7,877 bases of DNA. Source: Bacteroidia bacterium. GTDB taxonomy: Bacteria; Bacteroidota; Bacteroidia; AKYH767-A; OLB10. How positions within the stretch are numbered: position 1 is the first letter of the stretch; each line of letters starts with the position of its first letter. The notes under the pieces were generated by a model that saw nothing but the letters and a program-made list of their open reading frames with translations, did no database searches and was not told the DNA's origin. Both the position numbers and the translations under genes were made by a program. This document shows, piece after piece, positions 2,308-6,224 of the stretch. The stretch is taken from positions 1-7,877 of the forward strand of contig JANWID010000163.1 of assembly GCA_025450095.1 (NCBI GenBank), in the 5' to 3' direction.

Positions 2308-2566
2308 TGCGCTTTCAGGTTTATTATACAAAATAAAGTTCAGTATTTATTCGCATTTTTTACTGATTTTAAACGTAATTAGAATTATTAAATATAAATG
2401 AAATTCAATAACCCTCATCAAGATTAATTTTGTAATTGCTTCAATGAAATATTTTGATTTTTGGGTGAATCATATTTTAGTCTGGCCAAACTACTTGCTT
2501 CAATTTAACCTGTTTTAAAGCTAATATCCCTTCATTATATTTAGTGATTTATTAAAAATTTATTTA

Positions 2567-2574
2567 TATATTTG
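2567..2574 (+). promoter_or_regulatory. Candidate Bacteroidota -7 promoter box
   Basis: TATATTTG matches the Bacteroidota sigma -7 consensus TAnnTTTG exactly and lies 97 bases before the ATG at 2672. An imperfect -33-like TTTAG sits at 2540-2544, with a 22-base spacer. A second exact match, TAATTTTG at 2589-2596, lies inside the inverted repeat just downstream and could be the true box. AT-richness makes chance matches likely, so this is only a candidate. Confidence 0.3.
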
Positions 2575-2582
2575 TTAATATT

Positions 2583-2615
2583 AATACTTAATTTTGAAAA
2601 TATCATTTAAGTATT
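2583..2615. repeat. 9-bp perfect inverted repeat in the leader (possible operator or hairpin)
   Basis: AATACTTAA (2583-2591) and TTAAGTATT (2607-2615) are exact reverse complements separated by 15 bases. The left arm abuts a TTAATATTAA palindrome (2575-2584) and overlaps a TAnnTTTG box (2589-2596). The position, about 60-90 bases before the first ATG of the cargo gene, suits a regulator binding site or a leader hairpin. No T-run follows, so a terminator is unlikely. Function is inferred from position only. Confidence 0.35.
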
Positions 2616-2671
2616 CATCACACAACCAAATACATTCTTGCTTTCTCTAAAACAACTATATAATTAATGAA

Positions 2672-2743
2672 ATGAAAAATCTAAAACACCACACATTTTC
2701 AATACTTTCATTAACAATATTTATATTTCAATACTTTCATTAA
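2672..2743 (+). pseudogene. Detached signal peptide of the broken T9SS cargo gene
   Basis: The ATG at 2672 opens a 23-codon reading frame: MKNLKHHTF, then the hydrophobic run SILSLTIFIF, then QYFH and TAA at 2741-2743. Charged start plus hydrophobic core is a signal peptide without its cleavage region. It ends early because the second copy of a 29-bp tandem duplication (2697-2754) throws the frame off. With one copy removed, the same ATG reads through SLTIFILTSLKLDAQ into the body at 2764. That gives a 523-residue protein with a typical LDA|Q cleavage site like the NAQ of the next gene. No Shine-Dalgarno is visible; an ATG at 2667 stops after two codons and is ignored. I consider this the true start of the gene, now separated from its body. 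Confidence 0.75.
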
Positions 2744-2754
2744 CAATATTTATA
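2697..2754. repeat. Exact 29-bp tandem duplication (two copies)
   Basis: Bases 2697-2725 and 2726-2754 are identical over 29 bases; each copy begins TTTCAATACTTTC and ends AATATTTATA. The flanking bases differ (T at 2696 against A at 2725, T at 2726 against C at 2755), so the unit is exactly 29 bp. As 29 is not a multiple of three, the second copy shifts the frame inside the hydrophobic core of a signal peptide. The identity of the copies points to a recent event, and slippage or recombination between them could restore the gene. Confidence 0.97.
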
Positions 2755-2763
2755 CTTACATCT

Positions 2764-4272
2764 TTGAAACTTGATGCCCAATTTCAATTAGCAGGTATTC
2801 CAGAAAGCAATGTTTCAGTTTCTTTAAATGCACGTTCATTAACTGGAAATGATATTTTAGACTTTAGTGGAGATAGGTATAGAGTATTTGTTTGGGATGA
2901 TGCTGGATCAAATTCTGGAATTGCTTGGGACGTAGATTATAATACTTCAACTCATATTACAGGATTGACAACTCTTAGCAATCTATCAAATGTTGGTGAT
3001 CCAGATGTTTGCTTGATTGAAGATGGAAATCTAGTTTATGCAGTAGTAGCATATTTTGTTGGAGGTGGTTCACCTTCCTATTACCTTGACCTGTTTAGAT
3101 GGAATGGTTCAAACGCATTTGCTTTAACAACTTCAACTTCATTTTCATCTGGAAGTTATGGGTCAGCAATCAATATAGATGGAAACGATAATTTTGAATT
3201 TGCCGTAACATGGGATGATAATAATCCAGTTATCAATGTAATAACTGGAACAATTTCAAGCAGTCTTTTTGCACTATATAATGGAGGAGTACCTGTGAAT
3301 ATAAATACAGGAGGTATTACTCCTGATATTTGTATTCATAATGATGGTGGAGGAGCATGGACTGCACATATAGTTTATATTAATTCTGGTAATCTATATG
3401 TTGAAGATCATGATTTTGGAAACCTAACAAGTGGTACTGTTTCGCCAATTGTAACCAATCTTTCAGCGGCGGGTCCCACTTTTGGTTTTAGTTTTTATAA
3501 TCCTCGTATTGCATGTCCAGATGGTACCGGCGCTTCTGATGAATGGACAATTGTGTTTGAGGAAAGGAATATTTCTGTCAGCTTAATTGAAGGTTATAAT
3601 TATAACGCAGGACTTAATGGGATAAATGTATATAATGATGGAACAGCTTCTGGTTTCTCAGATGATTTAACAGGGGTATTAAATTATCTACCTGCAGTGG
3701 CTTACGATAACCAAGGGAATGTTTTTGTTGGTTGGACTTGGGATAATAGCTCAAATTATTATAACTACACTAATTCTATTGACGCAATTTATCCATTAGT
3801 TTTAGAATGTGATAATTCAGGAACCGTTACGGGGACAGACTATTGGCAAGTACCAACAGCACTATCGGGCGGAGGTACAGATATTGTGGATGTTCTTTCT
3901 TTAGCGGGACGAAATGCAAATGATGAGCTTTTGTTAACATACTGGAATGCCCAATATCCAGACATATTATATAAAATGTTTACTCCTTCAGGTGGAGGTC
4001 CTTTAAAAATTTTATCAGATCCGTATGGAAATTTAGTTCAATTCATCAATCACTTGAACAAGGGGTTGATAGAAAATAAAGAATTAAGATTAAATATACA
4101 TGATGTTTCCGGTAAGACAATTTTGCAATTAACCTGCTTGCCAGAAGTAATTTATTCTAAATTATTTCAGAATAACCAATATTTTTCGAGTGGTTTATAT
4201 TTTTTCTCAGTTCATTCTGAAGATGGCAGTATATCATATTCAGGTAAGCTGTTTTTTACCAATGAGAGATAA
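2764..4272 (+). CDS. Body of T9SS cargo protein, propeller-like repeats, cut off from its signal peptide
   Basis: The frame is open from 2671 to 4272 but has no ATG or GTG near its front. TTG at 2764 is the only usual start codon before the body, and it corresponds to an internal Leu of the undamaged gene. The product from there would be 502 residues without a signal peptide (KLDAQFQLAG...), so it could not be exported. Within it I see about seven similar segments of a P-D-I/V...D-G...W/V-x-W/Y-D/N type, near residues 31-46, 78-97, 133-152, 186-207, 246-267, 309-328 and 375-395. Examples are PDVCLIEDGN, PDICIHNDGG and PAVAYDNQGN. Spacing of 47-66 residues suggests a beta-propeller of about seven blades. 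Residues 415-502 are a T9SS type A sorting domain (LRLNIHDVSGKTILQL, FSSGLYFFSV), although the usual YPNP opening is degenerate (SDPYGN). The next gene starts 48 bases downstream with no obvious promoter, so the two are probably co-transcribed. Ligand and role are unknown. Confidence 0.8.
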   Translation: MKLDAQFQLAGIPESNVSVSLNARSLTGNDILDFSGDRYRVFVWDDAGSNSGIAWDVDYNTSTHITGLTTLSNLSNVGDPDVCLIEDGNLVYAVVAYFVGGGSPSYYLDLFRWNGSNAFALTTSTSFSSGSYGSAINIDGNDNFEFAVTWDDNNPVINVITGTISSSLFALYNGGVPVNINTGGITPDICIHNDGGGAWTAHIVYINSGNLYVEDHDFGNLTSGTVSPIVTNLSAAGPTFGFSFYNPRIACPDGTGASDEWTIVFEERNISVSLIEGYNYNAGLNGINVYNDGTASGFSDDLTGVLNYLPAVAYDNQGNVFVGWTWDNSSNYYNYTNSIDAIYPLVLECDNSGTVTGTDYWQVPTALSGGGTDIVDVLSLAGRNANDELLLTYWNAQYPDILYKMFTPSGGGPLKILSDPYGNLVQFINHLNKGLIENKELRLNIHDVSGKTILQLTCLPEVIYSKLFQNNQYFSSGLYFFSVHSEDGSISYSGKLFFTNER

Positions 4273-4320
4273 TTACCTGCATGAACTTAATAATGAGTTC
4301 CTAAAGATTCATTTATTAAA

Positions 4321-5964
4321 ATGTATATAAAACAAAGTGTGTTTTTAATAAATTTTCTTTTTTTGTGCTCTGCAAATTTAAATGCACAGTTTGTTTTATT
4401 TGGGGATAAAACATTTGGAGGCAATAATGGCGATGATTATCCCAAAGTTCTAATTCTAAATTCACAGTTTTATTTAGCAGGTAGAAGCTTAACAGATATG
4501 AGCGGCGACAAAACAGATGCTTTATGTTATAGTCAATACGGAGATATTTGGGTTTTAAAAGTTGATACTTCTAATAATATTTCATGGGATAAAAGTACAG
4601 GAGGATTTGATTCGGAAATTTCTATATATTCATTTTTAATTTCACATGAAGGCAATCTGGTTTTTGCATGCCGATCTAATTCAGATAGCTCCTGTGAAAA
4701 ATCAGAACCAAATTGGGGCCAGAGTAATTACTGGATTTGTGTACTTGATACAACAGGTTATAAAATATGGGATAAAAGATTTGGTGGCACTGGAGGAGGC
4801 GAACATGTGCCAAGAATTGTTCAGTTAAGTAGCGGAAATTATATTTTATGTGGAGTTTCCAACAGCATGGTCGGAGGTGATAAAACAGCTCCCAATTATG
4901 GGGCTTTTGATTATTGGGTTGTTAAAATGGATAGCACAGGAAGTAAAATATGGGATAATGTATATGGCGGGACAGACTGGGAATACTTGAATCCATTTTT
5001 CAGTTCTGCAGCTTTTGGATTGCTTGCAGAGGGTGAAAATTTTATTATTGCTGGAAACACAAGAAGCCCACTCAGCGGCAGTGTTTCAGATACAAGCCGC
5101 GGAGGATATGATATTTGGATAATTAAGGTTGACAGTTCGGGGAATAAAATATGGGATAAGCGTTATGGAGGGTCTGGTGCGGATTATGGCAACGATATTA
5201 TTAAGACAAATGATAATGGGTATTTAGTTATTGGGCACACTGAGTCACCAAATAATGGTGATGTAAGCGAATCTTCAAGAGGAGGTTTTGACTGCTGGCT
5301 GTTAAAACTTGATAGCCTTGGAGATAAGCAATGGGATAAAAGATACGGAAGCAATAATGATGATGGCGGTGCCATAATAAAACCAGACTTACAAAATGGG
5401 TATTATTGGATAAGCGGATATACAAACAGTGACAGTAGCTTTGAAGTGAGCGAACCTAATTATGGCGCTGTCAATACTTATGATTTCTGGATATTTAAAA
5501 TTGACAGTATTGGAAATAAAATTTGGGACAAAAGATTTGGAGGTCCTTCCGATGATTTTGGTGGTGATTTTTTTCTTCTACCTGATTCTTCTTTTTATTT
5601 ATTCGGCACAGCCGATAGCGGTATATCTGTTGTTAAGACCGATTCAGGCAAAGGAAAATCAGACTATTGGCTCATCCATTTTAAATATTCAGACAATATC
5701 GTTGGTAGTAATTCAACTTCAAATACGAAATATCAATTATCATTGATACCGAATCCTTCCAACGGTATAATTACCTTGCAAAGTAACCTTACTGGAAATT
5801 CATACATTAGTATTTACGATTTGATTGGTGAAATTATTTACGAAGATAAGATTACTTTACAAGATAAAAATACATTTGACTTTTCATCCTTTCGCGCTGG
5901 GCTGTATTTTTTAAAAATCGAAAATGAAATATTTTCTACTAACCTTAAATTTATTAAACAGTAA
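4321..5964 (+). CDS. Seven-repeat, probably beta-propeller, secreted protein with T9SS type A sorting domain
   Basis: This 547-residue protein starts with a signal peptide (MYIKQSVFLINFLFLCSANLNA|Q, cleavage about residue 22). Residues 26-455 hold seven repeats of about 61 residues. The unit begins with IWDKRFGG and ends with a strand of the form DYWxxKxDSxGxK. The WDK-type tryptophans are at 89, 150, 211, 278, 338 and 402; the first unit has GDKTFGG at 28-34 with no Trp. Spacing is 61, 61, 61, 67, 60 and 64. Seven units suggest a closed seven-bladed propeller (inference). The loop before the closing strand comes in two main forms, E/A-PN-W/Y-G (units 2, 3, 6) and SRGG (units 4, 5). No enzyme motif is visible, so binding or adhesion is more likely than catalysis. 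Residues 473-547 form a canonical T9SS sorting domain: IPNPSNG at 476-482, ISIYDLIGE at 496-504, FRAGLYFLKI at 524-533, end LKFIKQ. Unlike the gene before it, its signal peptide is intact. Confidence 0.88.
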   Translation: MYIKQSVFLINFLFLCSANLNAQFVLFGDKTFGGNNGDDYPKVLILNSQFYLAGRSLTDMSGDKTDALCYSQYGDIWVLKVDTSNNISWDKSTGGFDSEISIYSFLISHEGNLVFACRSNSDSSCEKSEPNWGQSNYWICVLDTTGYKIWDKRFGGTGGGEHVPRIVQLSSGNYILCGVSNSMVGGDKTAPNYGAFDYWVVKMDSTGSKIWDNVYGGTDWEYLNPFFSSAAFGLLAEGENFIIAGNTRSPLSGSVSDTSRGGYDIWIIKVDSSGNKIWDKRYGGSGADYGNDIIKTNDNGYLVIGHTESPNNGDVSESSRGGFDCWLLKLDSLGDKQWDKRYGSNNDDGGAIIKPDLQNGYYWISGYTNSDSSFEVSEPNYGAVNTYDFWIFKIDSIGNKIWDKRFGGPSDDFGGDFFLLPDSSFYLFGTADSGISVVKTDSGKGKSDYWLIHFKYSDNIVGSNSTSNTKYQLSLIPNPSNGIITLQSNLTGNSYISIYDLIGEIIYEDKITLQDKNTFDFSSFRAGLYFLKIENEIFSTNLKFIKQ

Positions 5965-5986
5965 TTTACTATCTGGAATTGAAAAT

Positions 5987-6028
5987 ACTAATAATTAATC
6001 GGTTCTTAGAATTATTAGTTTACTTTTT
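5987..6028 (+). terminator. Candidate AT-rich hairpin terminator after the cargo pair
   Basis: ACTAATAATT (5987-5996) and AATTATTAGT (6010-6019) are exact reverse complements, a 10-bp stem with a 13-base loop, followed by TTACTTTTT. It starts 23 bases after the stop of the repeat protein, where a terminator would be expected. The stem is almost all A-T pairs, so it would be weak, and the T-run is interrupted. The remaining AT-rich bases up to 6122 hold nothing else I can identify. Confidence 0.45.
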
Positions 6029-6122
6029 GGAAATAGTTAGGCCACTTAACAATTTTGTATTACCATCCATCTGTTTTTAAAATACATTGGGATTAGAATT
6101 TTAAAATTTAGTAAAATTTTTT

Positions 6123-6224
6123 TTTGACTGGGAGATCGGCGTCAGCGACCTGGCTCCTGGATTATACATTGTCCGAATATCGAATCATGATAAGCAGTGG
6201 ATGACAAGATTTGCTAAGTATTGA
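6123..6224 (+). pseudogene. Orphan 3' remnant of a T9SS sorting domain
   Basis: This plus-strand frame encodes 33 residues and a TGA: FDWEIGVSDLAPGLYIVRIS, then NHDK, then QWMTRFAKY. It has the hallmarks of the last third of a T9SS type A sorting domain: the LAPGLYIVRI strand motif, an aromatic-TR pair, and a lysine close to the end. It aligns without gaps to the last 33 residues of the protein at 1237-2307, with F-x-W, GxY and WxTR shared (14 identities by eye). The frame reaches back only to a TAA at 6102-6104 and has no start codon. Upstream lie a run of nine T (6117-6125) and AT-rich non-coding DNA; composition jumps at 6126. The rest of the gene is absent from the window, so this is the tail of a cargo gene cut off by deletion or insertion. 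Too short and well-ordered a match to be certain, but chance is unlikely. Confidence 0.75.

Follow-up and report, generated by a model that had tools for sequence, protein, structure and literature searches.

The signal-peptide codons of a gene assigned to an exported beta-propeller family contain an exact 29-bp tandem duplication, which we read as probably a recent, one-off event that throws the signal peptide out of frame with the body of the protein. The gene lies in the window, by which we mean the whole stretch of DNA that was analysed (7,877 nucleotides, apparently an entire contig, going by the length listed for the contig of its protein), and its features are the following, with positions counted from the first letter of the window.

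2567..2596, forward strand: two TAnnTTTG boxes, possible Bacteroidota -7 elements by their motif
2671..4272, forward strand: body frame, open from 2671 (TGA at 2668 before it), with a TTG at 2764 and the conserved mature start LDA-QF at 2779
2672..2743, forward strand: ATG-started frame of 23 codons, coding for a signal-peptide n-region and h-region and followed by the TAA at 2741-2743
2697..2725, forward strand: copy 1 of the exact 29-bp repeat, coding SILSLTIFI in the ATG frame
2726..2754, forward strand: copy 2 of the exact 29-bp repeat, coding SILSLTIFI in the body frame and containing the TAA that ends the ATG frame
2779..4005, forward strand: predicted beta-propeller domain, limits approximate
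4048..4236, forward strand: degenerate T9SS C-terminal sorting domain (TIGR04183, below cut-off in the window protein)
4321..5964, forward strand: downstream partner gene, 48 nt after the body, SBBP-repeat-like, with a signal peptide (judged by eye) and a T9SS tail that scores above cut-off

The exact duplication in the signal-peptide core that the original prediction had described is confirmed by TRF (2697-2754, period 29, 2.0 copies, 100% match, score 116), with a second repeat search agreeing and both copies falling within the core of the propeller gene's signal peptide. No other exact array in the 7,877-b window has a tandem unit of 10 to 100, and this one measures exactly 2.0 copies, with flanking bases that do not prolong the repeat and with no microhomology at the junction. 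The repeat is not a chance match, because full tandem units reached 16 at most in 300 sequences generated by a first-order Markov model (7,877 b each, trained on the local AT-rich stretch 2340-2760), as against 29 here, and chance origin is thus ruled out. Bacterial target-site duplications are usually shorter than 29 bp, and a target-site duplication left behind by an excised element is rejected on account of this length. In a background of 120 fetched loci (1.56 Mb), we observe 42 exact arrays with a unit of 15 to 120, two of which have a unit of at least 25 that is not a multiple of 3; frame-breaking long-unit arrays are rare yet not unheard of. The 29-mer itself has 0 matches in the viral contigs searched.

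With respect to the reading frames, the ATG at 2672 translates to MKNLKHHTFSILSLTIFIFQYFH (best 11-residue hydropathy 2.47), and translation from it would stop after 23 residues, within copy 2, at the TAA that makes it the dead end originally predicted; as a consequence of this early stop, the propeller would not be exported. The nonapeptide SILSLTIFI is coded twice, by copy 1 in the ATG frame and by copy 2 in the body frame, which fits a duplication inside a formerly continuous signal peptide, both halves of which are present in two different frames. The body had been predicted to lack both a start and an export signal. The latter part agrees with this split signal peptide, but a start is available: in a scan of 2601-2764, TTG 2638, ATG 2667 and ATG 2672 are all dead ends, and of all ATG, GTG and TTG codons only TTG 2764 leads into the body; it lies five codons ahead of the Q and can start a leaderless protein of 502 residues. 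The protein database entry is this same leaderless 502-aa protein, and at most this form would be made.

The body frame runs uninterrupted for 502 codons from TTG 2764 to a stop at 4270-4272, so that, as predicted, there is no further frame damage, and its composition is coding-type (GC by codon position 0.44/0.41/0.19). Because both the gene body and the downstream partner are undamaged, the allele looks young, in agreement with the earlier view of a recent lesion. Since the TAA sits within copy 2, any state with two or more copies terminates at the same codon; one copy is accordingly predicted to be ON and all higher copy numbers OFF, and the original proposal of a return to ON at four copies is wrong. 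Exact tandem duplications of about 29 bp can generally be lost again by slippage, so the window allele may revert, a parallel being the spontaneous duplications known from Streptococcus pneumoniae capsule genes. We infer that the organism truly carries the duplication, that it no longer exports the protein, and that the allele is young and revertible.

Judged by its sequence, the body is a member of an exported beta-propeller family, which occurs in 9 of 42 genomes of one Bacteroidia order. Within a database of 5.8 billion proteins, the window protein has no fellow member in its 90% cluster, and neither a near-identical protein nor a same-species relative was found; its next relatives are 35% identical (7,994 candidates scored). 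The propeller fold is recovered by structure search, with Foldseek TM-scores of 0.3-0.45 on the query, which speak for the fold only, and the structure matches, WD40 and integrin propellers among them, are likewise evidence of fold only. The same holds for the comparison with PLL/PHL lectin, sialidase and CylK-like beta-propellers, in which the fold is alike and the likeness is one of fold only. Body peptide patterns matched 52 and 46 stretches in genome and viral contigs, respectively, none of them confirmed, and searches of plasmids (DNA) and phages (protein) gave no match.

The prediction of a T9SS cargo suits the family, whose members often have T9SS tails, but less so the window protein itself, in which TIGR04183 reaches 16.7 bits against a cut-off of 23 (E 0.0055, residues 429-491) and for which Pfam gives nothing even at an E-value of 10. 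Among the 21 aligned proteins, the window protein included, 13 match TIGR04183 at E ≤ 0.01; 11 match Pfam Por_Secre_tail, the window protein not being one of these. Its putative T9SS assignment therefore leans mainly on its relatives. A mature start of the form A-QF is found in 14 of the 19 aligned proteins that retain the N-terminus. The closest relative protein, P0003, from a contig of 1,672 b, begins MKAHGQF, at the same place as the window TTG start, and possibly has a second broken signal peptide.

The comparison of the locus in relatives that had been called for was made on 22 loci found by tblastn, two of which begin at a contig end, leaving 20 that show the N-terminus. An exact tandem duplication in the signal peptide is present in 0/20 (400 b around the first in-frame ATG, units of 6 to 119), the sole array in that scan being an 8-bp repeat at the ATG of L095; on the other side, some of these relatives carry G-tracts near the same signal peptide. 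An in-frame ATG with a signal-peptide-like start (by eye) is seen in 13 of the 20, and one more, L106, has such a start with TTG instead of ATG. The other six (L102, L103, L107, L109, L110 and L111) show an upstream ATG leader, a G-tract, and then a basic and hydrophobic signal segment in another frame. In all six, another in-frame ATG follows the tract (in L103, for example, MATTIGLFVSTATSAQF), and a start there might yield a shortened signal peptide that lacks the basic residues. As a separate observation, five loci (L099, L100, L101, L105 and L106) share, ahead of the body gene, GTGGCAAGTAA and TTGCCAC arms that flank the promoter region at a spacing of 187-190 b and have the same orientation in all five; operator sites are one possible explanation, the arms of an invertible segment another.

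G-tracts near signal peptides are found more widely in the order, where 38 of 42 genomes have tracts of at least 9 G. The nine family-bearing genomes hold 47 distinct tracts, of which we inspected 34 (all of those in G284, G431, G416 and G427, one of two in G422, and none of those in G327, G413, G419 and G421), together with 12 tract regions from other genomes of the order, picked mainly for long tracts. Close to a gene start and at a signal or hydrophobic segment we find nine of the 34 and two of the 12; the remainder lie elsewhere. In seven propeller relatives, one of them a contig-end copy, a tract just upstream of the signal peptide leaves the leader ATG out of frame; six of these tracts are perfect (10 or 12 G) and the seventh is interrupted. 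One further relative has a G14 that is in frame. In G416, five of nine distinct tracts of at least 9 G precede a propeller-family signal peptide (L168, L169 three times, and L170; n = 10, 10, 10, 12 and 10), all out of frame with the leader ATG, and the unit of poly-G, propeller and SBBP gene is repeated as an array. In G431 this is true of one of four tracts (L172/L102, n = 10), with L109 carrying the interrupted tract G7TG3, also out of frame with its leader ATG. In G284 it is true of one of 17 (L156/L096, n = 14), which is in frame and open for 745 codons. Two further gene families of the order show similar tracts: in G284, the members of a different pair of proteins (L147 and L152) have tracts of 17 and 11, respectively, directly ahead of the first hydrophobic segment, both out of frame with the leader ATG, and in G409 a G10 sits in the signal-peptide region of two paralogues that belong to yet another family of exported proteins and form an ON/OFF pair, L198 being in frame (581 aa) and L195 out of frame (26 aa). 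Seven G284 loci (L146, L147, L149, L152, L154, L155 and L160) additionally have 21-bp tandem arrays around poly-G tracts.

Across the 12 leader frames that were read, 10 are OFF (L102, L103, L107, L109, L110, L111, L114, L147, L152 and L195) and two ON (L156 and L198), an excess that counts against reading the tracts as switches, as does the later ATG of the six relatives, and that could reflect either programmed slippage or paralogues with one common state; because many of the loci are paralogues, the G-tract counts are not an independent statistic. The tracts are of the classical simple sequence repeat (SSR) design, a repeat type other than that of the window, and slippage at signal peptides may be habitual in this order. 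They lend indirect support to the view that the signal peptide of the propeller family can be a switch site, and, because some family relatives have repeat-type frame breaks near the signal peptide, a functional role for the window duplication is less far-fetched than it would be for a random gene. The broader proposal, that the signal-peptide region is a general contingency-switch site of the order, with slippage mostly in G-tracts and the window as a long-unit version, we nevertheless regard as rather unlikely.

The surroundings of the gene are distinctive in composition. An AT-rich block (2340-6130) holds the body and partner pair, whose third-position GC (0.19 and 0.26) is low compared with the 0.36-0.44 of three flanking genes, so that the pair looks foreign to its place and was perhaps acquired horizontally. 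A relative of the partner adjoins the body gene in four of the nine family-bearing genomes (G427, G416 in several copies, G422 and G419). The stretches taken from G327 and G413 showed no partner next to the body, the G431 and G421 stretches stop shortly past the body gene, and the comparison was made without the G284 body loci. Abutting the AT-rich pair, at 6129-6221, is the 3' end of a T9SS sorting domain (WEIGVSDLAPGLYIVRISNHDKQWMTRFAKY), an orphan in that no gene precedes it; Pfam Por_Secre_tail gives E 0.006 and 17.3 bits for this end (below cut-off, profile positions 47-71). The OMP gene of the window is about equally close to L186/L185 (43-44%; G259 and G207), L001 (Rhodocytophaga, 42%) and L085 (G026, 41%), with two candidates per genome scored in one of the comparisons; G259 and G207 belong to the family-bearing order and G026 to another, in which the propeller family occurs in 0/7 genomes.

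The main rival to an export-null allele is an assembly seam, that is, two contigs with a 29-base overlap joined unmerged, in which case the organism would carry a single copy and the gene would be a normal, working one. The length of exactly 2.0 copies and the clean junction are the trace that an unmerged overlap would leave, and they are not predicted by simple slippage; moreover, only one contig is known for the locus. Default k values of one common metagenome assembler include 29, which is a further point for a seam. The 58-base array, however, is well inside ordinary short reads, which should span it, and we consider a seam unlikely, though to be taken seriously. The original prediction had itself named an assembly error and a plain loss of function as alternatives, and together they are more likely than the switch that it put forward. 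In that proposal, one copy (exported) and two copies (not exported) interchange at a selected rate as an evolved long-unit contingency switch, and the position of the repeat in the signal peptide, the intact body, the relatives' G-tracts near the same site and the G10 ON/OFF pair of another exported family all speak in its favor. Against slippage of this kind are the presence of two copies only, the missing microhomology, the absence of the repeat from all 20 relatives, and the stop in copy 2, which turns every state of two or more copies OFF and leaves no frame ratchet. An evolved switch is therefore improbable, and nothing at the window repeat points to one that is maintained.

A frame break at the gene start and a degenerate T9SS tail score are also what one would expect of an ordinary pseudogene heading to decay, with the duplication fixed and not reverting, but 502 codons without a stop or frameshift argue otherwise, and the alignment shows by eye that a diverged tail is common to relatives with an in-frame signal peptide (e.g., L098), making decay very improbable. 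Continued expression, in which a rare start codon or a frameshift gives access to the body frame and a longer signal peptide results, would agree with a frame that is open from 2671 through both copies and with the hydrophobic core that copy 2 supplies in it (hydropathy 2.72); since the body frame has no ATG, GTG or TTG between the upstream stop and 2764, we give this hardly any credence. A young, export-null allele produced by a single duplication is the reading that we retain.

With respect to known systems, the SSR contingency loci of Neisseria, Campylobacter and Haemophilus have repeats whose number sets the frame near the start of a surface-protein gene. The relatives' G-tracts fit this class, whereas the window repeat does not: SSR loci have short units, several to many of them, whose changing number shifts the frame, and the window has one 29-bp unit present 2.0 times, with an internal stop such that extra copies cannot reopen the frame. 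A tandem duplication in the signal peptide is likewise absent from the 20 homologues with a readable N-terminus. Long units also occur in Mycobacterium tuberculosis, where promoter tandem repeats (57 bp for dop) vary in copy number within isogenic populations, as revealed by ultra-deep HiFi reads (PMC12817950); those repeats act on a promoter and the window repeat breaks a frame, both being long-unit. Within the Bacteroidota, a 2025 review of phase variation covers Bacteroides, and the terms duplication, signal peptide and Flavobacter are absent from it (PMC11868660). Rough/smooth phase variation is mentioned for Flavobacterium psychrophilum, with no mechanism in that passage (PMC4322650). Among the matches listed in the open-access literature, which leaves subscription journals mostly outside, there is no paper on slippage in T9SS or Bacteroidota cargo. 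The wider point of the present data is a side result: G-tracts of at least 10 stand at the signal peptide of some exported proteins in one Bacteroidia order, among them an array of multi-copy genes and two paralogues of which one is ON and one OFF, and this amounts to a directly testable prediction for long-read metagenomes.

The nearest likeness for the window repeat itself is found in pneumococcal capsule genes, where duplications in the type 3 locus and in cap8E and tts are, by the titles of the papers, a cause or control of phase variation (Waite et al. 2001, 2003, as given in PMC4022640). Here, as there, a tandem duplication inside an open reading frame would switch a surface product off, and the window shows the hallmark of a spontaneous intragenic duplication, namely, an exact tandem duplication that aborts the product of an otherwise intact frame. 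The two cases differ in that phase variation has been reported for the capsule, whereas the window is one contig, and the duplication falls in a signal peptide and not in a capsule gene. If the duplication is real and revertible, this single event would have given a surface propeller an export-null allele, and the Bacteroidota would have a counterpart to the pneumococcal capsule duplications.
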